NCBI RefSeq assembly: GCF_963576615.1
Contig: NC_088711.1
Coordinates: forward strand, 8,674,869 to 8,738,868
Source of the DNA: Watersipora subatra
Lineage: Eukaryota; Bryozoa; Gymnolaemata; Cheilostomatida; Watersiporidae
Direction: 5' to 3'
DNA length: 64,000 nucleotides
The position numbers were made by a program, and so were the translations under genes. Positions 4,847 through 39,872 of the stretch are shown one piece after another (within the stretch, counting starts at the first letter, position 1; each line of letters starts with the position of its first letter). Under the pieces are notes generated by a model that was not told where the DNA came from, ran no database searches, and was given only the letters and a program-made list of their open reading frames with translations.

Positions 4847-7800
4847 CTGTGTTCCAGTTAGAACAGTTGCCACAGTTGACAAACAGCTGCAACCGGAACT
4901 TGTCAAGAAGGCCGCCACGTACTCCCGGGGGAGGAAGGAGCAGGCTTGCGTATCCGAGCCAGAAAAAGTCAGCAGCAAGAGCATTTTCTGCAATAAATAT
5001 TGAGCAAATGTGTAGTAAAATGACTTCATTAGCTATTTAACTAATAACTTTTCTACCATGGCTAACTGAAACAATTTTTACAAAAAGATTACCATTTATC
5101 TTTTTGACGCACAATACTACAACTATTCAACAGATTTTCGTTACAGCGCTCCAACATACAGTTAAACCTTGGAATATGAAGTTAATTTCTTCAAAGATTC
5201 TTGTCCTCTGCAAAAATTGTGGCATGATGAAGCAACTTTTTCACAAAAATAAATATGTACTGTGCTTCATTTAAGTTGTTTCACAACCCACCAACTTAAT
5301 GAAGTAATTATGGATAAAATAAAAACAAAAGTAAAAAACTAAATTAATCAAGTAAGAACCAGTAAAGTTCTTAATGTCACATAGCCTTAGTTAAAGACAA
5401 CGAAAGGTGTAGCCTAAGCAATATAGGTGATGAACAGCCCGAAGGTGGTAATAGAGCTACAAAACAAACACTAACTTGGACTATGCGAATTCTAAATTAA
5501 CATAGCTTTTTTGTTTTTATATTTGAAAGTTTTTATCTTTCATCATTAATCGTCGTGCCAACTATCTTCACTTCTGCTCACTTTCGTTTCTCCGCATTGT
5601 TATCATCTTCTTTACCCTGATAAGTTCTAGACAGCTAAATGATCCACAGACTTTCTATGCCTTGCTATAACTTATTTATTTGATTCTAAAGCTTGGTTCC
5701 AAATACACCACAAGAACCGGTGGCAGGATCACAGGGTACCAGCGGTAAAATAGGAACCTACACATCAATTACCGCCGGTAGTTGCGGGCGGTCAATGCAA
5801 GAGTTCAGCGCTGTTCAACTTTCGCAATTCGCAAGGAGCCGCAGGAAAAACCTTCCCAAAATGCACTACACAGGTGAAGGTCAGCACTTTCAAAATGGCA
5901 TGGCGAATGACCATTTCTAGGCAGTCGTCAGCAACGCAGCTTTATGTGAACGTAAGCTGCCAAGCCTAGCTCCGCACGTATTTGCTGTGCAAGATTACCG
6001 CAAGGGTGTCACAACTGATATGGGAACCATGCCTAAGGAATGTATGGCCTCTTTCCTTATTTCTACCACTATTACTACTCAACTGTTAGTCAAGGGATCC
6101 ATAATTTAAAAATTAAACAATGAAAGTACTAGACACGGTTTTAAACGATGAAAAAGAGAACTCGGGCTTACATGTATGTACTGATTTAAGAAACTTCAAT
6201 ATTTCATGACTGTTTCATCATAAATGATGAAAACTACCTAGGGTATATTAAACTATTTGCTCAAATTTTACTGCTCGTGTTGAACAAATGGTATGTTAGG
6301 GTAATCTTAAGTCAAGGTTTGACTGCAACTGAAGATTCAATCATGGTTTGTTTAAATTTACTTCCAGATACAAACTTTACCATTGCACCTTTTTCAGTCA
6401 CAATATGATATATTTGATGTTTATCTAAAAAATCAAAACTCAATGGACAATAATCCATCCAAAACAAATGCAGACTCCTTGATTAGCTCTACTACCTCCA
6501 TAACAAACATGTGAGTTTTCTTCTCCCTACAGCAAACAACTGCAACATACTCTAGTGATCATAATCCCTGAACCTAGACTGACCTCAAGCTGACTTAACA
6601 CCTTTCACAAACCACTGTAGCAACAAGCTATTACTGCTAGAATTCTGATGCTGGCTAGGTTTACGGCAAAGGCATGCCATAACCAAACTCTCACCTCCTT
6701 CTCTAGGCCCGATGCCCTTATTCTCAAATCCTCGCAGACTTGTTGGGCCTCCGAGATAAAACTTGTCTAGTATTGACAGCGGTTTATTAACTGAACCGGC
6801 TGTGAAGTTCAGGGGCTGCACATGACCGACACTGCAGCCCACTTGTCCAACCTGAAAATGATCGATGTTAGTCACACGGCAGCCTAATAAAATAACTACA
6901 ATACAAAATGAGCAAGAAGCTGAAAGCAAGAGACAGCTGAGATGCAAGTAATCTAGAGCTCACAATTCTGCTTTTCGGGAGGACTTGATTAAGCTGCAGA
7001 GAAAGCTGCTTTGAGTAGAAGTGACAATCTCCACCGAGACCTGCGAGTTCCTGGGATAATCTAAATATGATACCCTGGGAAGGAAGGATGACGTCATCCC
7101 TGCTGTCGAATGTCATCTCATGCTGTAAAAACAGTCTTCAATCAAAAGACAAGACGGACCCGTGTGTACTCTGTACAGTAATACAAATAACAGGTGAGCA
7201 AGGTTACTTGACTTTGAAGCTACAATGATTAATTGTCATGTCTATATAGGCACGATTCCTGAGAATGACTCACCCGTTGCTACCTCGCAAAGCTCTAATA
7301 ACAGTGAGCGTAAAGGTAGACATAAGATAAATACTATAAAGAAATAAAATGTCAAGGAAAGCTGTATCAGCCCCAGATACATTGTTTGACTGTCTAAGGA
7401 GTTCTCAATGCAGGTCATACTGTGAACCAAATGCGAGAGCCACCAGGCATGTCATAGTAGTATATATTGACTTGAAAAACTAGCTCACTAGTGAAGCAAC
7501 GACAAGTCCAAGTATTTCAAGCATACCTTGAGGCTGGATTTGAGTGAATGTCCAGCCTGTTCCCGAACTGACCACGCAGTTTTGTCACTCAGAGGTAACA
7601 ATTGCCTCCACACTCCCAACCAAGAAAACTTGTGCATAAAATCGCTATAGTTTATCTAAAAAAATTAGAAGGATACAAACCACTCATTGTGAACTTGTCA
7701 CCAACTACAATAATGCTACATACCATCTATATATATAGATATACTAACTGTGCCTCCCCGCGTTGCCCGGGTATTAAAAATCTGCTTATAAACAATGAGA

Positions 7801-19637: not shown

Positions 19638-22600
19638 CTACAGAGTCAACAGCCTCTTCACCCTTTCAAGTATACGAAACTGATTTTTTCGATAAAGCTT
19701 GTCATTGTACATTTCTACAACATCCACACATTTGCTCAAAATTTTCTTGACACTAGGTGGCGCTCCTTCGGGAGGCCAAGAACAAAAGCGGAGAAGCAAT
19801 GCAATCACAGGCTTGTCGAGCGCTTCAGCTAGCTTCAGATCATTAAGGCAGTTGTCACTTTGTATGTACTTCGGTGTCACACAACAGAAGACAAGTGATG
19901 CAGATTTCATGTTGCGAAGAATAGTGCTCTGCAAACTGCTGTTTGACTCGTGCAAAGCTGGACTAGTTGATGACCTTGTGCTAAGGCTACTGTGACCTCT
20001 CATCTGTGCTCCATTGTCAGCCCAGCACTGAAATCCATGAGTCTCCAACATTTTAGCTATATCATCCACCTAAAAGGAGAAAAGGTACTTGTGAATGAAG
20101 ACATGGTTACATCTTTGATTGCTTATTTAAAATTGATGACATCACTGAGAGTTTTTTGCTAAAACATTTTATATACAAGTTTTATTTATTTTCATGGAAC
20201 AACTTGTAAATCACTTAGCTGCCATATTGAGTTGGCTAAATATTTATAAAAAATTGAAGTGAGAAAGTACAAATAGTTGAAACACGAGAAGGAATCAAGC
20301 TTAAAGGTTAAGATCACAAAATCTTTTGATATCATTAGATACAAATATTGATCTAATGCATAATTAGCCCAAAAGCAACTTAATTTTAGTGTAAAAATAA
20401 GAAGATAAAAACATGTTATGTAGGAATTTAAAAAAAGGTGTAAAAATGTGGTCATAAGCAATCTCAAGAGAAGTTTGGACTGTACATCGAGTTTCAAAAC
20501 AAGAGAAGCTTGAGTCGAGAAAAGAGGCTCAAATGCAAGTCTATAACATTTAATTTGTAGTATACCTACTTCAAACTAGATTTTTTACGTAGAGGGAAAA
20601 ACAGGCTGACCAGCATAAGGCGGCCAAAGCCGCTAGCATACAAAAGTAAAGCCATGAGCATTGATGCATAAGGTGCAGTACCTTAGATTGCATGTCCCAT
20701 TGATAACTGATGAATATCTGGGAACCGCTACGGTTGCTGCGACGAAGAAGCATGGCTGACTCTGGAAAAGGTGTAAGTATGCAAATAGCAACTTTAACTG
20801 GAAGTAAAATAATATCTCTAAAACGCACAAAAATCAAATAACGAGTACGTATAAATAAATTGCACCAACATGCAAATGAATTGACATACGAGCTCAGTCT
20901 CGGAACGCATTAAGCTCGTAAGTCGAAGTATGACTGTATATGACATGACATCATAGTAGCTCCATCCGACAAACCCTGTATAGGATTCTTTACTGATAAA
21001 TTCTAGAATATACTTATATTGCTAAAGCGATGCCTTAAAATGTGTAATATCAAGACAATTACCTCAAGTAACCCGCACCCATAGCTTATACCAACAAAGC
21101 TGTTCACATCCTACGCCATAAAAAAGCAGAGCAAGTGAACTGTTCAAGCAAATATCTAGGCTGATCCAGATGCTGTCAAACTGTTGATGCAAGACTATTG
21201 TTCAGCGGTTAATGATTCCATTGGTGTCATATATCAAAGAATGAATGTTCAAGCTAAGTCAAACGGTGAAGGCAATGCTTCCTCTTAATCCTAGAGCTCA
21301 ACTAGCCAAACATGCTGCCAGGCTATCACACCACGCTCAGCAGTAAAACGGCTAAAATTGCACAAATAATGCTAAAGGGTCTTCTCATTCAAGCCTTGTA
21401 AACCAAATACTGAAGGACAAGGAAGATTCCGAGAGGAAAGATCACTCCTTTTTATTAGCAGTTCTCAAGCTTGAACAAATCCTAAGGCTACTATCGCATA
21501 CTTACAACTTATGATGTATACAATCAAAGCCCTTTAATAAAAGTTTGAAGCATGATTAACTGGCCTTCAATGTCAGAATTTGTGTGAATATTTAAAGCAG
21601 CCGCCTAAAGTCTGACCTCAGACATTCTAACTTGAGAGTATAGAACAAGGCTAATAAGAGAGGGCAACCCTTATTTGCAGGTAAAAAATGGAAAAAATAA
21701 GCATGCACTCAGCATAACCAAAAAAGAGAAGAAGCAAGTACATAGAGGTCAGTGTACTAGCATGACATATATGTGCAGTGCAATCATGATTACAACAGTC
21801 AAATTTCATACACAAGAAGAGCATGGCTTGTCGTGCAATAAAGACATAGAGTGTTGCGTATAGAAGCATACTTGACTCTCATGTTATGTATAAACACATC
21901 TACAAAAGGACATAGTAAATAAGCACATGAGCTGGGTATAGCATAGCAAAGCATCAGAGACGCAGGAGTTAGTTGCTTGAGAGCATATTAGACATAGACA
22001 TTTGTCAAACCACCAAAAGGTACAATAGCAGAATCCATCAAAATCTAACAAGTTTATAGCATATCAAGTGTCAGTTAGTGATTACATTTGGTGATCTTGA
22101 AGCTAAAGGAGTGAGAATAAAATAAAGGAAAAATAGCAGTAACAATGCCAGATATGGTTGACAAATTAATATTGAGTAACATCTAGGTCAGGGGTCAGCA
22201 ACCCACAGCTCCAGAGCCGCATGCGACTCTTTCATCCCCTTACTGTGGCTCCCTCTGACTTTGGACTTCTTCCCTTTTTATTATATACGGAGTAATTCAT
22301 AAAAATATAAAAGTTTTATCACTAGATATTGTAATATAACTTTAAAAAATTGTAATTATGGTGATAACTCAATGCCACACTTTTTCGTTTTGTGTTGTAA
22401 ACATGGTATAAAAGCATTAAAAGCTAAACAAAAACATTTCATGTAGTGTTTATGTATTTTTAAATTTAAAATATCAAAAGTGGTTTGTGGCTCCCACTGC
22501 GTTTGTTGTGGAAAACGTGTCATAATGGCTCTTTAAGTGGAAAAGGTTGCAGACCCCTGATCTAGGTAGTTATTTGTCAAGGTTGGATAGTGCTGAACAC

Positions 22601-25600
22601 TATAAGCAACTGCAGTTGTAGCTGCCTCCTAGCTAGGATTGATATTTTATGTTGAATACTGCTCGGTTTCACCGTTTCAAGTGTTGCTAGGGTCTTTAGC
22701 TACAGCAGAATCTACTCGCTAACAAACAACTAGCAAATTGAAAAAATCTACAAATTTTTATTCAGAATATTGAAATGGATATAACTTATTCAAAGAACTT
22801 TCATTCCATAAAAGATATTTTTTATTCTGGCATTCACTACCACAGTGAATCTTCCTAAAAAGCCTCCAATACTGATCACATAAATATAAGTATTTATACA
22901 ATATAAATCACACCCTGAGAAATAGCGGTGAGTGTATTTATTGTAAGTGCTATACAGGCACACGAGTCATTAAAAATATTACCTGCGTTTGTGGCAGCCA
23001 GCTGAGCAAGAGGCCTAAGCCCTTCTGCCATCTTGTTTAGGTATGACTGCTCAAGCACGACACCAGGGAGAGCACGGAGAGGCTTGAGATGGTGTTCCAG
23101 GACATCCATACCATCTGAGTATAGATTTCTCTCAAAGTCGACAGCGAGGCATTCTCCTGAGATACAGGGGCCAATGTTAAGGCAGCACGGAAATACTTAG
23201 CTACCTTAATAAAGGGGTCTAACAAATAGACATTTCTAACTAAACTACAGCCCGGCAAAATATACTTTGTTGTATTTGGTCACTAATCAAACCTGACTCG
23301 AGAAAAAGCATTCATACATCTAGATTAAGATTGTTCACCATTGTCCCCACCATTTTCCTGCGGATGGGTGAAAAACAAAAACAATGTAGATTGCAGAGTT
23401 TTACAAACATGCCATTATCAGCAGCAAAGCAATTATAAACATTATTATGAATGCTGTATGACCATCTAATGTATGTTTTTTCAAAGATAAAAGGCAACTT
23501 TTTGTGAATCACGTATTTCAACCGACTGCTAAAATCTGTGTTTGATGGTCGGATTTCATGTCGAGCAACTGTTCTATTCTACATGGTGTTACAAATAATG
23601 AGATTTTTAAAACTATTCACAACCTGCAGTTTTTATTGATTTTTAAGCAAATCCATCACACTTTTAAACAGGCACTAGCTAAAGATGGTAGAGATACCCA
23701 GTGCAAATTTGTGACGAAAAGGAATACGAGACAATTGACACTTTCCTATCAGTTTAGTGAAGTAGCATGGCAAAGCAGTGCAACTTTTAGAGCCAAATTT
23801 TTGAAGTGACCTTCAACTTTATGGAACTTTGTTTACGATAATAAAACAGTGGAGTTCAACCAACCTATCACGGCTTTCATAGATGGCCTCAAATTGAGCC
23901 AATCATTTTTAAACAAAGCCACTATAATCTTTTTGCCCAACCAATCAGCGAAGAGCATCTCGTGGAAGACGAAAGGGGAGGAGGTAGCATGCTCAGTGAG
24001 TACAAGCAGCACGTAGTTACAAGAGGCCATGAAAGGCCCATTCAGGTGCAGGAACTCTTCCTTAGACTGTCCAAGCTTCTGATGGTGGATGACCTATAAC
24101 AACAATATAATCACTTCTTGCTTCTAATCAGGGCTGTATCTACCTGTTTGAAAATGGTACTGCGGAGAGAGTCCGAGAGGGGTGCTGAGTGCCCTCTCGG
24201 TGGGGGGTCCAGGGGTTCTCCACCAGGAGATTTTTTAGTATAACTAGTCAAAATGGTGCAAATCTAGCACACTTGGCTCCTGATGGGGCACATGTTCTAA
24301 CAGCAAATTTGACATTACAAACCACTGTTTTCAAAATATAAAACTGTTTATTGAGATTGTCTTTAACAACGCTTATTAAAAATATAATGTGAATGAAAGC
24401 TGCTAAAGGGGTTGGCCACAGCTAGCATGATGTAGAATTATCACTGGGTACAATGCTGAATGATGTAGAAAACGACTAGTTTCCTATGAAATAATTTAAT
24501 TAAATAATATTGAAGAATTAAAAAGTAAAATTAATAGAGCACCATGTTAAAAATAATGCACTTAAAATGTATTCTATACTACTGAGCAGTAGAATGAGTA
24601 AACTGAGTCATTTACACAAATACTTAATTAAAATTAATTTAAAGGAGGGAAGATCTTCCACTGTGGTAGTTTTTGAAAGTGTCAATGATAGCTTCTATCA
24701 TTGACACTTTCAAACTTGTTATAGCTTATCAGTTGGATCATTGTGCACATGTGGTATTAGTACGCTGTTCAGTCTTTTTTTACCCATAGAGGCCCTTATG
24801 GCAGTCAGAACCCGGTTAATAGCGCTGAATGATCTCTCTCAATCAATAATAATAATATAAATAATTAATAATAACAACCAATTCTCAATCGACCTTTTTA
24901 GTACATTGCTCAAATAACCAACACACAGCTTAAACACTGTAGTCCAACAGTGTGCTCCATCAATGATCTCTTTGAGTTGCAGTTGAGTTTGCAAAAAACG
25001 CACATGGTGATGAAAGGGATAATTTAGACATCAATGATACCTCTCGCGAAGCGCGTGACTTCAGTATTGTTACCACTGATACTGATTCAATATGGCGGCA
25101 CCCATAAGTGAAAATTTTGTGTTTCTTCAGCTTTTTAAAGATTTATTAAAAGCACGCAAATATGACGTGAATTTCGGGAATTTGAGCCTCAAAAAAAGGT
25201 ACTGTCATGGTAGTAGCTGCAGTATAGGAGGATACGGCCCTGCTTCTAATGTCATAAAAATATGTGAAAACAACACATTAGTGTAATGATTTGATTTTGA
25301 CTTTTTGATTTATTTTTATCAACAATAGTAATTAAACAAAAGAAAAAAAAGCTGGAAGTGTGATGAAGTTCATAATACGCATTAGCATAGCTAGTCGTGG
25401 CATCGGGCTTGTCGTCATCACGTAATCAAGATCAATTTTTATGAGTAATTAGGTTTTATTCACTTGTTAAAAAATGTAATCTAAGTTGATGAGGAGCAAT
25501 GATGAGCAGACCTAGTTGAACATAACTTAAAACTGCATGAATAAATTTATGCAGCTACAAAACAAATTAAACTAGACTTTTAAATAAATACTAAAGCAAA

Positions 25601-28600
25601 ATGCGAACTCGCTAATGTCATGAATGTAATATGTTCTAGCAAATATTCTTATAATATAAAGTTAAATGTATTCTGTACAATGAATGCCTACAATGAAATG
25701 GCTGAGTCTAACTTGTGTTCTAAACTATTTGGTTCATCCTTCAAAAGCTAGCACAGCCTCAATCTAAGACGATCAGCGTTTGTTTTTTGTCGACCAACCT
25801 GCAAGTTCTTTTTGTTGAGGTCTACTTTAAAAGTTTGAGCTAGTCGAACATCAGCTGGATCATAAATGAGATAGACGGCGTTAGCCTTAGCTCTGACTGT
25901 TCTGGCTCTCAGGTGCCAGTTGTCAGCTAGTTTCTGCTCTCGGTCTAGTGCTGCAAGGATGTTCTGCATTATCTTTTTCCTCACAATCCTGCTGTCTATG
26001 GCTGAAAGAGCGAAATCAACAAAGCTTACCGAGATTACTAAAATTTATGTATAGAAACATTCAGCTTAAGTAATATCCTGTATGTTCAACAGGACTATTG
26101 TTGCTAGAGAGAGGTTACTGAGATTTCAAGAACTGTATATTGATTGCTGAGTTGGCATGACAACACAACAATAATCAGTGAAGTGTTAGGAGATTTGAAC
26201 ATATACATGTACTGTTAAGATTGAATGGTCAATGCAAACGATCAAGTTACCAGACCAGTTAACAGTAAAGCACATCATTTGAGAGACATAAACTAACTGT
26301 CACAAAACCAACAAAAATGTCTCCTGAACGATTTTTTTTATTAATTTTGATGCAAGAGACATTCAGTGGTTGGTCTAAACAACGACTTGTCCGAAATAGT
26401 GGTTGACATACTCCAAGAATAACTAGAGTTAAAGGCAAGCTGAACATGAAATTAATAAAGAAATTGAAGCTTTTTGTTAAAATATAATTGGAGGTTGGCA
26501 CCCTACATTTGCCAACCTCCAATTATACAGACACCAAGTAATTACAGACACCTATATTTGCTTTAGTCTGAAACTTGGGTTCCCAGTTTCATAAGAGTAA
26601 ATGCCAGCCCCGGCATTTCAATTGTACATGAGAGTTAAGTCTAGGCTGTTTATGAAGAACAGTTAAGCAGAGCTGAAGTAAAGTTCACATGGCACAAGAT
26701 GTTGTTAAGTGGGTAGTATCGTTGCAAGAAGTCTTGCAATAGTGATTGTTCCCTTGATATATAATCGATTTCAGTTTTTCTATCATATTTCTGTTGCTTT
26801 TAATTTTGCCACCCAGACCTTATCATAAGTGATTTCCCAAGGTTCAAAGAAGTAATGGCAGAATACAGGAGAAAAGCAACAATAGAGGTCGATGAATGAG
26901 TGACTAGTCGAGAGTCTATTTGAGCATAGAGAATTTAAAATTTCCTTGTCAGCACTCGAGCTTTCACCTATTCAAACATCTTAGACTCACTTTAATCTAT
27001 CAACTATGCTAGCCAGTGACCTAAAGCAAATAAATCTACTAACAGTTTTCCGACTACTTTTACAATTATTATTTACATTGCCAATCCTATTCTTTCATGG
27101 CAGCAACTTATATTTCATTTCGAAGGCCCTCCAAAACTGGCTCTAGGATACCCTGATACTGGCTCTAGGATACCCTAAAACTGGCTCTAGGATACCCTGA
27201 TACTGTCTCTAGGATATCCTGATACTAGCTCTAGGATACTCCGATACTGGTTCTAGAATACCCTGATACTGGCTCTAGGATACCCTGAAACTGGCTCTAG
27301 GATACCCTGATACTGATTCTAGGATACTCTGATACTGGCTCTAGGATACCCTGATACTGGCTCTAGGATACCCCAAAACTGGCTCTAGGATACTCTGATA
27401 CTGACTCTAGGATACCCTGATACTGGCTCTAGGATACCCTGATACTGGCTCTAGGATACCCCCGAAACTGACTCTAGGATACCCTGATACACAATAGCAG
27501 TTTCAGCCTCACCGCATAAGATCAACAACAAATCTGTAGAATTGTATTCAAGAAATGCTTGAGAAACACTGTCATTGATTGCAACACAGCTGCCTTCAAT
27601 GCCGGGTGCCGTATTTTCACGCATACAATCGATACTACTCCCCTGAAAGATAGGTTGTTTGCGTGAATGGTTTCGATTTGCTTTTTCAACTATGGCTATG
27701 AGTTAAACACAATGCTAGAATGGAAGGAGCGCGTAGACACCAGCCAAGCTGCGATATAGCTAGGCTGGTGTTTACGCGCTCGCGATGTAGCTCAACAACA
27801 GACAAATCCTATTGATCCTTTATGAGAATTTTGAGATGAGCTCAACGGTTTTTTAAAATGGACTAAACTGTACATGAGATTTTCATAGATGAATGAATAC
27901 ACTAACCAACGAAAACATGAATTGAAGATAAGTAACAGGCTATTACCTGAACAATACCGACTAACTATCTAGCTCTGCAAAGTACGCTCATAAACAGATG
28001 AGATAAAGAGGAGTGTTTGGTTTGACATTGGCTACTGTTCTCTTTAAGTTGTACTGTCAATTCTCTAGTCACTTATAGACTTTGAGATAACTCGAAGAAT
28101 ATAAACCAGCAGGTACTGTACCAACGCTACCATTTCTGTCAAATAGCTTAATAAGAAAATAGATATATCTAGCAGACAGCCGAATGCCAGTAATGCGAGA
28201 GTGACTGGTTAACCAAAGATTCACTCTGAATATAAGCATGTAGGACAAATATGCTCAAGAGTAAATAAAATATTTACCACATGTACTGAGGTGTCCTAAT
28301 AAGGACAAAACAGCTGAGCGTCTAGAGATGCACACATCACGCCTAATTTATCCATTGCTTGAACACTCTTGTCGGTTATACTATTTTCATGATATTTAAC
28401 AGTTTACACACTCTGGAATGTTAAATTCTGTAATACATAGTTATGTGTAGTTTGATATTATGGCTAGGATTTGTCTATACGTCTCTGAAGAGAGTTTGAT
28501 ATTATGGCTAGGATTCGTCTATATGCCTCTGAAGAGTCATAACACGGAAAAAACATCACATATCAGGTACATGTATACACAAAGAGTGTTCAATATAAAC

Positions 28601-31600
28601 ACACCGTATACAGAAAGCGCTCTATATTTGAACTGTTTATATAATCAGTTAGTTGGTACATGTTTTAAATAACTTGACTGATTACAATTCATTTGAAATT
28701 GGCGTATACAATGTAACTCTGCCCAGAGCAATGCCATTTGTTCACTCTGGTCAAATAGAATGCAAATGTTTGACTGAACCAACCATTCCTGTAGGCATAC
28801 ATATGTTATACAAATTAGGCGCTCAAGTCTTGTTAGTACTGCATTTGACTGGCTTCCAGTACATGCTAGGTATTAGGGGCAAGAACAGTATTCAGTTTAG
28901 CTTCATTACCTTGGCTTCACAGTTTGCTCGTTAGTCGTTTGAAAACATATGCTATAGTTTAACAAAATTCTAACTGAATACTTCCATCATAATATTATTA
29001 TTGACGTAACTATCATCGATAATACCCATCGATAAAAGAGGGTGAGCTCAGTTGCGACATTAGCTCCTTAAACCGGCTGTGATGAACTAAGTGATTAGAC
29101 TTTCCGTTACCTCATTATCACTGAAAGTGGAGCATTATGACTGGCATTTGTTGATGAAACATTTTGACTACAATTGTCAAGCCACTTTGTTAACTTAATT
29201 GCATTATGACTATAATACCAGACCGTATTCAGAAATCGCGAAGAAAATGAAAAGATATATTCTGGTTTATAATACTGTTGTTAACACAACACCCTTTCAA
29301 TCAGCCAAACCTGATTGAAATGGTTTTAATTTGATTATAATTGAACACGCATTCAGTTGTAGGGCTATTTATTATTCAGCAGGCAAGGAGATAATACTTT
29401 ATGAATAGTCTTGGGTAAACTAGCGAACTGGTCACAGGATAAACTGTCTTTACAACATACGATATCATGCAAGACAACATGGTAATGCTAGTTAATGTTT
29501 GAATTTCTGTGTGGTTGAAATAATCAGTTTAGAAGCAGTTTCTGTTCTTTACCAGACTAGATAAAACTACTTTCTTCAAACCAATATAAAGTTTAGGCCA
29601 ATTAATGTACATTTTTGGTTGACAAATCATTCCCACTGACTGGTGTCAGCATTCCAGTTAACTTCAGAATGTTCTTAATATGACAACATTTTTTTAAAAG
29701 ATCCTTCTATTTTGCAACAATTAGTCAGCTAGCAAATGATGTAAAACAAGGGTTAATTATCTTTCACTCAATTGTTACACCAATAACCACACTGACCAGT
29801 GCCAGTCATGAAAGTTGTGCTGGTCAGGTTAGTTTTGTTGATGGCAGACATTTAAGATAAGTCTGTAAAGTTTGAGGTAACAGACATGTTAGTTGTTTTT
29901 AGTACATTGATTACCAAAAGCATGCTAGTCATACCAGAGATGTTATTATAAAAGGCATGTTAGTTATACCTGTAATGTTAGTATAAAAGGCATGTTACTC
30001 ATACCAGTGATGTTACTATAAAAGACATGCTAGTTATACCTGTGATGTTACTATAAAAGGCATGTTACTCATACCAGCGATGTTACTATAAAAGGCATGC
30101 TAGTTAAACCAGTAATGTTACTATAAAAGGCATATTACTCATACCAGTGATGTTACTATAAAAGGCATATTACTCATACCAGTGATGTTACTATAAAAGA
30201 CATGCTAGTTATACCAGTGATGTTACTATAAAAGGCATATTACTCATACCAGTGATGTTACTATAAAAGGCATATTACTCATACCAGTGATGTTACTATA
30301 AAAGACATGCTAGTTATACCTGTGATGTTACTATAAAAGGCATGTTACTCATACCAGCGATGTTACTATGAAAGGCATGTTAGTTATACCAGTGATGTTA
30401 CTATGAAAGGCATGTTAGTTATACCAGTGATGTTACTATAAAAGACATGCTAGTTATGCCTGTGATGTTACTATAAAAGGCATGTTAGTCATACCAGTGA
30501 TGTTACTATGAAAGGCATGTTAGTTATACCAGTGATGTTACTATAAAAGGCATATTACTCATACCTGTGATGTTACTATAAAAGGCATGTTACTCATACC
30601 AGCGATGTTACTATAAAAGGCATGCTAGTTATACCAGTAATGTTACTATGAAAGGCATGTTAGTCATACCTGTGATGTTACTATAAAAGACATGCTAGTT
30701 ATACCTGTGATGTTACTATAAAAGGCATATTACTCATACCAGTGATGTTACTATAAAAGACATGTTAGTCATACCAGTGATGTTACTATAAAAGACATGT
30801 TAGTTATACCTGGGATGTTACTATAAAAGACATGCTAGTTATACCTGTGATGTTAAACATAAAGCATGTTAGTGGAGTTAGTAATGTTCATCAGACCAAC
30901 AAAGATTGTCAAATCAGTTGCAGTATTTATCCTGCGCATGCTAGTTGTACTTTGTTGCATTATTGGCTCAGCGCACTTTATACAAAACAATTGATTAACT
31001 AAGAATGACTAGTGAAAAGCATCAAACAAACCGTGGCTGTAACAAGTGATTGGCAGTAGCTTTTGTAAAAACAAATGCTACTAAACAAGATGACAAACTA
31101 TTAGCGATGTTGATTTGCTATGATACAGTATCATGCTAATGCAATGTTTGCATGATAAGCTTAAAATAGCTAGATACACGATGTGACACATGCTAGAACA
31201 AGAGATACCTAAATGATTGACCATGTCATCGTCTCCCATGGATATGAGTAGAAAGCCATCAATCATTCTCTCAGCAAAGCTCTGACGATAAAACTCCTTA
31301 ATGCCCAAATCATGTAACCACTCCTGCAGATTGGACGTGTCCCAGCGGCAGATTTTCTGCACAGAATTACCAAAATTTGTGCGAACATGTAGAGGCAGCG
31401 TATTTTTGGATTCAAACAAGCATCGTTATGTAAACAATGTCACGTAAATGTGTGCATAGACTTGAAAGTATATTCAGAGGCATAAGAGCAGTAATCAAAT
31501 GACAATGAGCTATAATAAAATGACAACAATCAATAAAAACAACACTATATGCAAACCTTGCTTTTGTATTTCCCATCAAATCGTGCTTCAACATCATCGA

Positions 31601-32267
31601 CAGCCTTGAGAGGAGTATTAATAACAGCAAACTTCTCTAGTGTTTCCATAATGCTACCTAACACGACTGATGTTTTCTCCGCCATGCTAAGCCTCGCATT
31701 AACTGCCGTCGATAAATCTACAGGGTTTTCCAAAAGACTGGCGTAATGTTTCGAAATCTCTGTTTCAGTTAGTTTAGAATATAAAACGCTATATGTTTGC
31801 ACAGACTTGAGTTGTGAAAGATTTCTCTCCATGAGCGTTCGTGCCTCATACACTGAAACGGGGCATGTAAAATATTGATCAGATAAAATGAGGATAGCTG
31901 CTTGACATCTTTCAGCAGCTTCCATTCTTTGACTAAACCATATCGGACTATCAATACAATTCTCGTCTTTATCAAACCAGATATCATCAGCCATATTGTT
32001 CTCCTTAAGTTGTCGAACCATGTCACTGACAAAAGCCCTCTCTTCAAATCCAGCATCGGGTGAATATGAGATGTAAATTCCTTTCTTGACCCTTTTGGTT
32101 GTAGGTCGAGAATTATCCATAAAGTGTTTTGCACCAAACTCATCTGGAAAAGAATGGCTGTCATGCTCAGGATATCCATTCTCGTTTTCTTTTGTGTCAA
32201 GCTTCATCTCAACACCATTTGCTATACTGACTGCGATCACCCCATTTGTCTCATCTGTGCTTTCCAT
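19638..32267 (-). CDS. TIR-SAM-TIR-TIR protein
   Basis: Seven exons: 31557-32267, 31209-31356, 25799-26001, 23865-24093, 22983-23156, 20682-20761 and 19638-20069. They total 1977 nt, exactly 658 codons plus stop, with every phase matching. Order: a polar N-terminus (1-61); TIR1 ~62-165 (GIYISYSPDAGFEERAF, IWFDKDE); SAM ~239-308 (LQEWLHDLGIKEFYRQSFAE, then DSRIVRKKIMQNI); TIR2 ~327-435 (NAVYLIYDPADV, HEMLFADWLGKKIIVALF); a linker; TIR3 ~503-615 (QIFISYQWDM, GFQCWADN). The Glu of NAD-cleaving TIR domains (SARM1 E642) aligns with E399 in TIR2 and perhaps E141 in TIR1, but with D592 in TIR3. SAM domains usually oligomerise, so a SARM1-like signalling or NADase role is possible. There are no ARM repeats or membrane segments. 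The first coding exon follows an AG acceptor, so an upstream 5' UTR exon is likely. Confidence 0.85.
22189..22559. mobile_element. hAT-type non-autonomous transposon, 371 bp
   Basis: The termini are CAGGGGTC and GACCCCTG, with an exact 8-bp target duplication ATCTAGGT at 22181-22188 and 22560-22567. Both ends carry GTGGCTC-type subterminal motifs. It has no transposase frame. Sharp ends and a perfect duplication indicate a fairly young insertion in an intron of the TIR-SAM gene. Confidence 0.93.
24129..25242. mobile_element. hAT-type non-autonomous transposon, 1114 bp
   Basis: The ends CAGGGCTGTATC and GATACGGCCCTG are imperfect inverted repeats, flanked by the 8-bp direct repeat CTTCTAAT at 24121-24128 and 25243-25250. 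The inside is non-coding apart from a 64-codon frame without signature, and holds a perfect 20-bp-arm hairpin at 24672-24714. It lies between exons 3 and 4 of the TIR-SAM gene. Confidence 0.9.
24672..24714. repeat. Perfect hairpin, 20-bp arms
   Basis: TTTGAAAGTGTCAATGATAG is followed after three bases by its exact reverse complement. It sits in the middle of the 1114-bp hAT element. Confidence 0.9.
26483..26527. repeat. Perfect hairpin, 17-bp arms
   Basis: TATAATTGGAGGTTGGC, an 11-base loop, then the exact reverse complement. Intronic in the TIR-SAM gene. Confidence 0.9.
27138..27492. repeat. 22-bp tandem repeat, about 16 copies
   Basis: The unit is ACTGGCTCTAGGATACCCTG plus AT, with scattered substitutions. 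Intronic in the TIR-SAM gene. Confidence 0.95.
27727..27781. repeat. Inverted repeat, 19-bp arms
   Basis: GAGCGCGTAGACACCAGCC is mirrored by GGCTGGTGTTTACGCGCTC with a single mismatch. The arms are GC-rich compared with the surroundings. Confidence 0.85.
28451..28537. repeat. Tandem duplication, 44-bp period, two copies
   Basis: TTTGATATTATGGCTAGGAT followed by T/CGTCTATA and CTCTGAAGAG occurs twice in a row with four or so differences. Confidence 0.8.
29920..30866. repeat. 35-bp tandem repeat, about 27 copies
   Basis: The unit is TTACTATAAAAGGCATGTTA followed by CTCATACCAGTGATG. Variants alternate (GGCATGTTACT, GACATGCTAGT, GGCATATTACT), suggesting two or more subunit types. Lies in the 5.2-kb intron between exons 2 and 3 of the TIR-SAM gene. 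Confidence 0.95.
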
Positions 32268-33348
32268 TGTGCCTTCATTCGCCTGAACAATTTAAATAAT
32301 ATAATAAGTCTGTTGAAAGGTGTTCTGTTAAAACAACTGAAGCGCAAAAGACATGAGTTGAAAATTAAAGAAAAATACTAAGCCATATATATTACCTACT
32401 AATTACATATAGCAAATGATTATGTTATTATGCAGAACCTACATGTTTTCGTTAGATCAATGATATACAGCCCCCCCCCCCTGGGGGGCTGTATATCATT
32501 GGTAAGATGGACTATCAATACTGTTTTCAAAGTTGAGCTAGTAGAATCAGGTGTTGCATAATTTAATATCCTAAATTACCTGATTTATCAAAGCTTATTC
32601 ACCTATCCATGTAATGCCTACGTGCGTAATAAATCATTCTGTATACTACTATACCCTGTTGTTGTTTGAAACAAGGAAGCTCTCATGCTTGGTACATTAT
32701 AACACCAAGGAACTCGGAAAAATGTGCGATTACATGCATCTAAAAGTTGGTTGGACTAATCCATAAAAATTGAAAAAAAGAACCGTAACCTAAACCTAGA
32801 ATTATCCGCTTGTGAGATCCTAAGGCCTTTCAGATTTAGCCAACAAAATGTCTAAATGCTGATATGCCAACATTCTTTCTATCTGTTGTTTATGGTGTTT
32901 GTTATTGTAGTTGCCCATTAGATTTTAAGATTGTATATTTAAAACACATACGTTTATGTTTTTATAAAAAAAAACTACACATTGTCAGTTTTAAAAACAT
33001 CTTTAAAAAACAGCAAAACTGACATTATTACCGTAAGATCGTCTGCTCCTAATCTCCTACACAGATACAGCGCGAACCATGCCGCTGGTCTCTAATCGCA
33101 ACAAAACCTCACATCCGCGGAGATAACCTTAAAATTCAAAATAACTAATTTTTTGTTAAATTTTGTAATTTTTAAGTATAAAACAATTTAAAAATATTAT
33201 TAAAGTTTATGCTACGCTATAAAATTTAAATTTAAGTCAAAGTCGACATCAACGGAAAAGGCTTGTACGCACGCGCACATTCCAGGTTGCTTTGGATATT
33301 CCAATACAAAATTCATGTTCTTCACTAACTGTCTTTAATAATTGAATA
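32268..33348. promoter_or_regulatory. Divergent intergenic region between the TIR-SAM gene and IFT57
   Basis: 1.08 kb separates two genes that are transcribed away from each other, so both promoters should lie here. No TATA-type element stands out from the AT-rich background. A C-rich palindrome sits at 32459-32500. Confidence 0.4.
32459..32500. repeat. Palindrome with C-run / G-run arms
   Basis: AATGATATACAG plus a run of 13 C is followed by T, six G and the reverse complement CTGTATATCATT. Each arm is about 18 bp with almost no loop. Confidence 0.9.

Positions 33349-39872
<6,524 letters not shown>

Follow-up and report, generated by a model that had tools for sequence, protein, structure and literature searches.

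A bryozoan gene with an unusual arrangement of TIR and SAM domains was identified in a 64,000-nucleotide stretch of the Watersipora subatra genome (G000:C4:8674869-8738868, hereafter the window; the genome searched comprises 784 megabases (Mb) in 239 contigs). Its predicted product carries one SAM and three TIR domains in the order TIR1-SAM-TIR2-TIR3, an order that is real at the level of the gene model and unusual, and that is best read as a new variant among the known invertebrate TIR proteins. On balance, we lean toward the view that the gene encodes a multi-TIR adaptor or scaffold that is clustered via its SAM domain, and a signalling scaffold is more likely here than a proven enzyme that destroys nicotinamide adenine dinucleotide (NAD).

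The predicted gene lies on the minus strand between an ATG at 32267 and a stop codon at 19638, and its seven coding exons (711, 148, 203, 229, 174, 80, and 432 bases, from first to last) add up to 1,977 coding bases and a spliced product of 658 residues. The six introns (200, 5207, 1705, 708, 2221, and 612 bases) all have GT-AG borders with consistent phases, so that the length, strand, and coordinates given for this protein in the first-pass annotation are correct. Exon 1 (31557..32267, residues 1-237) encodes about 60 N-terminal residues followed by TIR1, with box 1 (IYISY) at residues 64-68. The SAM domain begins in exon 2 (31209..31356, from residue 238; SAM_1, E value (E) 5e-6) and ends in exon 3 (25799..26001, residues 287-354), which also contains a linker and strand beta-A of TIR2 (VYLIY, residues 329-333). 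Exon 4 (23865..24093, from residue 355) holds the TIR2 core, and exon 5 (22983..23156, from residue 431) the end of TIR2 and a further linker, as recognized by Pfam on the joined exons. Exon 6 (20682..20761, residues 489-515) comprises linker sequence, an in-frame ATG (M492) located 12 residues upstream of TIR3 box 1, and beta-A of TIR3 (IFISYQWD from residue 504); exon 7 (19638..20069, residues 516-658) supplies the remainder of TIR3, whose BB-loop region contains an 18-residue insertion, and the stop codon. Intron 2 also harbors two minisatellites, one of 27 copies of 35 base pairs (bp) at 29916-30873 and one of 16 copies of 22 bp at 27136-27490.

Domains were assigned against the curated Pfam cut-offs of 28 bits for TIR_2 and 20.5 bits for SAM_2. 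When open frames were searched singly, TIR_2 was matched in exon 1 (26.4 bits) and exon 7 (34.2 bits) and SAM_2 in exon 2 (25.0 bits), and the single frames of exons 3-6, that of exon 4 alone included, gave no meaningful match. With exons joined, SAM (exons 2 and 3; SAM_2, E 4.6e-8, 33.6 bits) exceeded its cut-off and TIR3 (exons 6 and 7; TIR_2, E 3.1e-13, 50.7 bits) did so by a wide margin; TIR1 (exon 1; E 5e-6, 27.4 bits) remained slightly under the TIR_2 cut-off, and TIR2 (exons 3-5; E 0.0016, 19.3 bits) also stayed below it. The joins inside SAM, TIR2, and TIR3 are thus supported, because the Pfam scores rise once the exons are joined. Although below the cut-off, both TIR1 and TIR2 were matched from position 1 of the profile; because their scores stay under the curated threshold, they are regarded as TIRs that have diverged in sequence. 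The proposed order with one SAM and three TIRs, unlike that of SARM1, was recovered by Pfam on the joined exons, and the proposed absence of ARM repeats likewise held: no ARM family was found by Pfam in exon frames or joined domains, where a single HEAT match remained at chance level (E 0.13, under cut-off). No LRR or Death family was detected in the same searches, and none of 640 overlapping 19-residue segments reached a hydropathy of 1.6 (maximum 1.31); the protein is probably cytosolic. NCBIfam returned nothing near its cut-offs (TIR1 to NuoG, E 0.0031, 16.4 bits against a cut-off of 470).

SARM1 and its Caenorhabditis elegans counterpart tir-1 are NAD hydrolases of ARM-SAM-SAM-TIR architecture, with which the TIR-SAM-TIR-TIR protein has in common a SAM domain followed by a TIR and, in TIR2, a Glu at the position of SARM1 E642. 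It differs in having no ARM match, with only about 60 residues ahead of TIR1, and one SAM rather than a tandem pair; whereas SARM1 has a single C-terminal TIR with Glu, additional TIRs stand here before and after that module, and the C-terminal TIR3 carries D592. MyD88 combines a Death domain with a TIR, and Toll-like receptors (TLRs) combine LRRs, a transmembrane segment, and a TIR; the W. subatra protein has no Death family and three TIRs in the first comparison, and neither an LRR match nor a membrane segment in the second. Invertebrate TIR-domain-containing families have been described previously (Gerdol 2017, as cited in PMC6321704, PMC6836662, PMC5549309, and PMC12521104), among them the bivalve ecTIR-DC family 6 with ARM-like repeats, a Death domain, and two TIRs (PMC6836662). 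TIR and SAM occur in one protein in the amphioxus hybrid gene Brafl1_131196, for which the available text names only the combination, so that domain number and order are not comparable (PMC2575513), and a figure legend lists SAM among the domains of actiniarian TIR genes, again as a combination whose order is not comparable (PMC5094078). No TIR-SAM-TIR-TIR protein was found among the literature matches listed, partly available as excerpts and covering few subscription journals, which is no proof of absence.

The genome encodes a separate SARM1. A human SARM1 TIR query led to another gene at C1:19.410-19.413 Mb, where identity amounts to 61% across query residues 18-83 and to 51% across residues 82-124. 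Directly ahead of this TIR lies a frame that has one SAM_2 match and, as judged by eye, a second SAM, the first SAM being incomplete in the frame. Because the same genome has this gene, the TIR-SAM-TIR-TIR gene is not the SARM1 orthologue, and its candidacy as the SARM1 of this genome was rejected. When the whole protein was compared with the genome, 15 candidates were scored and 14 places were obtained at E<=1, half of them its own exons; the other seven were a SAM-only frame, a TIR3-like core, and five exons resembling box 1 of the TIR3 type. With no second TIR1- or TIR2-like copy among these 14 places, the gene is single-copy as far as sequence similarity can tell.

According to the first-pass annotation, the residue at the SARM1 E642 position is Glu in TIR2 and Asp in TIR3, and this placement is supported. 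In a profile of 11 other TIRs (four haloarchaeal and seven from the same genome), from which both domains in question were left out, E399 of TIR2 (codon 23959..23961), D592 of TIR3 (codon 19839..19841), and SARM1 E642 share one column, and both MAFFT alignments of eight TIRs agree. A different register, about 10 residues off and with Lys or Pro in the catalytic column for TIR2 and TIR3, was obtained in both MAFFT runs restricted to the three TIRs and SARM1, and an insignificant phmmer alignment of TIR2 (0.4 bits) was likewise displaced by about 10 residues; these registers were set aside because the eight-sequence alignments and the independent profile concur on E399 and D592. Two aligned paralogs of TIR3 from the same genome, one of them assembled manually from three exons, lack the 18-residue insertion and carry Glu where TIR3 has Asp. 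AlphaFold models of exon 1 (predicted local distance difference test score 35.7) and exon 7 (44.6) were too poor for superposition, and the latter places D592, at low confidence, within a predicted helix (72-83).

TIR1 is more difficult to place, since it is left unaligned by the 11-TIR profile, and in the two eight-sequence MAFFT runs the column is occupied by an Arg and by a Glu other than E141, respectively. Its Pfam range of 9-93 against profile positions 1-78 assigns E141 (codon 31845..31847) to TIR_2 column 71 if the last eight residues are gapless, and the Glu of a paralog (L022) falls in the same column in a gapless match. Judged solely from these Pfam offsets, TIR1 probably also has a Glu at the E642 position. 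E141 goes unmentioned in the first-pass annotation, which describes the catalytic residues of TIR2 and TIR3 as unequal. According to the available text of PMC7075850, a Glu occupies the catalytic position in >70% of TIRs overall, a share that exceeds 90% in the TLR1/2/6/10 subgroup. A residue this common was rejected as an enzyme mark on its own, and the earlier use of the TIR2 Glu in that sense is not supported, as TIR2 keeps, of the other SARM1 determinants compared, only the box-1 Tyr and an aromatic residue for W638. The new class of TIR enzyme suggested there is no more than a possibility.

Activity of SARM1 is lost on mutation of Y568, D594, G601, W638, H640, E642, H685, and other residues, and a SARM1-specific loop is treated as a feature of active TIRs in the part of the article available (PMC8266388). 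We located the corresponding positions in the three TIRs by motif, not by structure. All three retain the box-1 Tyr and none has RR after box 1. The D594 position is occupied by Asp in TIR1 and TIR3 and by His (H357) in TIR2; at the W638 position, TIR1, TIR2, and TIR3 have Val, Phe (F395), and Asn, and at the H640 position Val, Phe, and Leu. From the end of beta-C to the Glu position there are 12 residues in each TIR, versus 20 with the SARM1 loop, and neither HEYQ nor HDYQ occurs anywhere in the 658 residues. The SARM1 of the same genome (TIR exons joined by eye) keeps RR after box 1, D594, W638, H640, the Glu, the 20-residue spacing, and HDYQ. F395 and E399 make TIR2 the strongest candidate for an enzyme among the three TIRs, but the case for it, as far as motifs can indicate, is weak; the protein probably lacks NADase activity.

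The domains differ in their kinship. For comparison within the genome we used 539 records from 31 partly overlapping loci. TIR3 represents a type whose box reads ISYQW, and its best match in this set (L003, E 5e-10) is a TIR of a Death-TIR-TIR locus (L037, C1:70.526-70.530 Mb), where a Death domain (E 4.2e-10) is accompanied by two TIRs that are near kin of TIR3 and which is probably one gene. Both loci have tandem TIRs, and 24 columns are invariant among the three sequences of the TIR3 type; the Death-TIR-TIR locus differs in having a Death domain where the TIR-SAM-TIR-TIR gene has SAM, Glu instead of Asp, and no 18-residue insertion. TIR1 had no significant match among the 539 records (best E 0.29), and its nearest solved chains, those of MyD88, were not significant either (E 0.19). 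The best match of TIR2 in the 539 records was the TIR of the genome's own SARM1 (E 0.14, not significant). Among solved chains, the SAM domain matched SARM1 best (E 1.3e-8) and liprin-beta second (6.7e-7), and among nine SAM loci of the genome a SAM-only frame at C4:22.4 Mb ranked best (4.8e-9), with the incomplete SARM1 frame at 0.012. Taken together, the protein looks like a mosaic. The search of solved structures gave no match for TIR3 and one, unrelated, for TIR2; viral contigs scanned with exons 7 and 1 yielded no relatives, and genome contigs scanned with A3 gave 26 pattern matches, none confirmed. A tblastn search of plasmids returned six records for TIR3, all haloarchaeal TIRs at E 0.2-0.6, and one unrelated record for TIR1.

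In the scaffold reading, SAM may self-associate and gather several copies of the protein, which would raise the local concentration of the tandem TIRs. The TIR surfaces of the clustered TIR2/TIR3 pair and of TIR1 could then become available to nucleate or cap assemblies with the TIRs of putative receptor or adaptor partners, and TIR3 might mix with the product of the Death-TIR-TIR locus because both are of the same TIR type. The TIRs of TLRs and TLR adaptors are thought to be mainly scaffolds (PMC13142454, PMC8635717), and the general principle of TIR assemblies, both scaffold and enzyme, is given in the available text of PMC8635717. Some observations weigh against a scaffold. TIR2 has the Glu with an aromatic residue, F395, four positions upstream, and when compared with 16 TIRs it is closest to the SARM1 TIRs of W. 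subatra (E 0.004, 6.8 bits) and human (E 0.005, 6.7 bits). Together with the best solved match of SAM, this makes a diverged SARM1-like SAM-TIR module possible in terms of sequence similarity. Moreover, TIR enzymes outside the SARM1 family need not have SARM1-specific features.

The strongest competitor, which we nevertheless consider unlikely, is that SAM and TIR2 form a working NAD hydrolase, oligomerized through SAM as in SARM1 and regulated by TIR1 or TIR3. Besides the similarities to SARM1 just given, it draws on E399 and F395 at the E642 and W638 positions and on the location of SAM immediately before TIR2, as in SARM1. However, TIR2 lacks RR, W638, H640, and HEYQ/HDYQ, has H357 for D594, and shows the shorter spacing; the Glu is frequent in TIRs that are not known as enzymes (PMC7075850, available text); and within the genome SAM is closest to a SAM-only frame rather than to SARM1, whose first SAM is incomplete in the frame compared.

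Slightly less probable is that the prediction alone has joined what are in fact at least two genes, such as one for TIR1-SAM-TIR2 and another for TIR3 only. The joins of exon 1 to exon 2 (TIR1/SAM) and of exon 5 to exon 6 (TIR2/TIR3) fall between domains, where frame, strand, and splice sites are the only basis, and a separate TIR3 gene is conceivable because exon 6 offers M492 ahead of TIR3 box 1. Between 32300 and 19000 the minus strand also contains 21 AATAAA/ATTAAA-like hexamers, a number that AT-rich DNA would give. On the other hand, all exons are on one strand with matching splice sites and phases, including the exon 6 acceptor and the exon 5/6 phase, and SAM, TIR2, and TIR3 each score higher across a join. 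We infer that all seven exons belong to one transcript.

A mixed pair is improbable. In such a pair, the Glu would come from TIR2, and TIR3, with its Asp and enlarged BB-loop region, would act as a pseudo-enzyme that completes or gates the TIR2 site in SAM-clustered chains. A decaying pseudogene or a recent functionless fusion product is the least credible of all, for although TIR1 and TIR2 score below the Pfam cut-offs and TIR3 combines Asp with a long insertion, the seven exons are open across all coding bases with intact splice sites.

Upstream of the TIR-SAM-TIR-TIR gene, and head-to-head with it, matches to IFT57 (PF10498, one below cut-off) were found in three open frames at 33349-36759 on the plus strand. 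The interval of about 1.08 kilobases from the ATG to the likely IFT57 start (32268..33348) is a possible divergent promoter region shared by both genes. The IFT57, SARM1, and Death-TIR genes, together with the sizes of the introns, indicate that the genome is very probably that of an animal. Further along the plus strand, a 13-bp minisatellite of 56 copies (36869-37599, 94% matches) leaves three forward frames of 252-296 residues open, which are probably spurious. At 6585-6959 on the minus strand, an open frame matches Omp85 (PF01103, E 1e-9); we take this frame to be perhaps SAMM50. Elsewhere in the genome, five tandem and closely similar open frames of 247-267 residues (L004-L008, C4:2.20-2.27 Mb) encode a TIR after a hydrophobic-looking stretch, with an Asp at the catalytic position as read by eye (SDFFHA). 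Ten short PF01582 matches at E<=1e-3 (L045-L051, L053, L054, and L056) lie within about 0.28 Mb at C4:57.55-57.83 Mb, an arrangement suggestive of tandem expansion of TIRs or TLRs.

As of 2020, SARM1 was the only animal TIR protein with known NADase activity in the available text of PMC7075850. If the mixed-pair reading were true, a single polypeptide would form a gated TIR holoenzyme that processes NAD and is distinct from SARM1. If the protein is a scaffold, it shows the assembly of several TIR types into one adaptor. A second SAM-TIR protein whose TIRs are split between Glu and Asp, in a genome whose SARM1 has retained its motifs, would test in a natural setting whether clustering through SAM and a common Glu are enough for activity.

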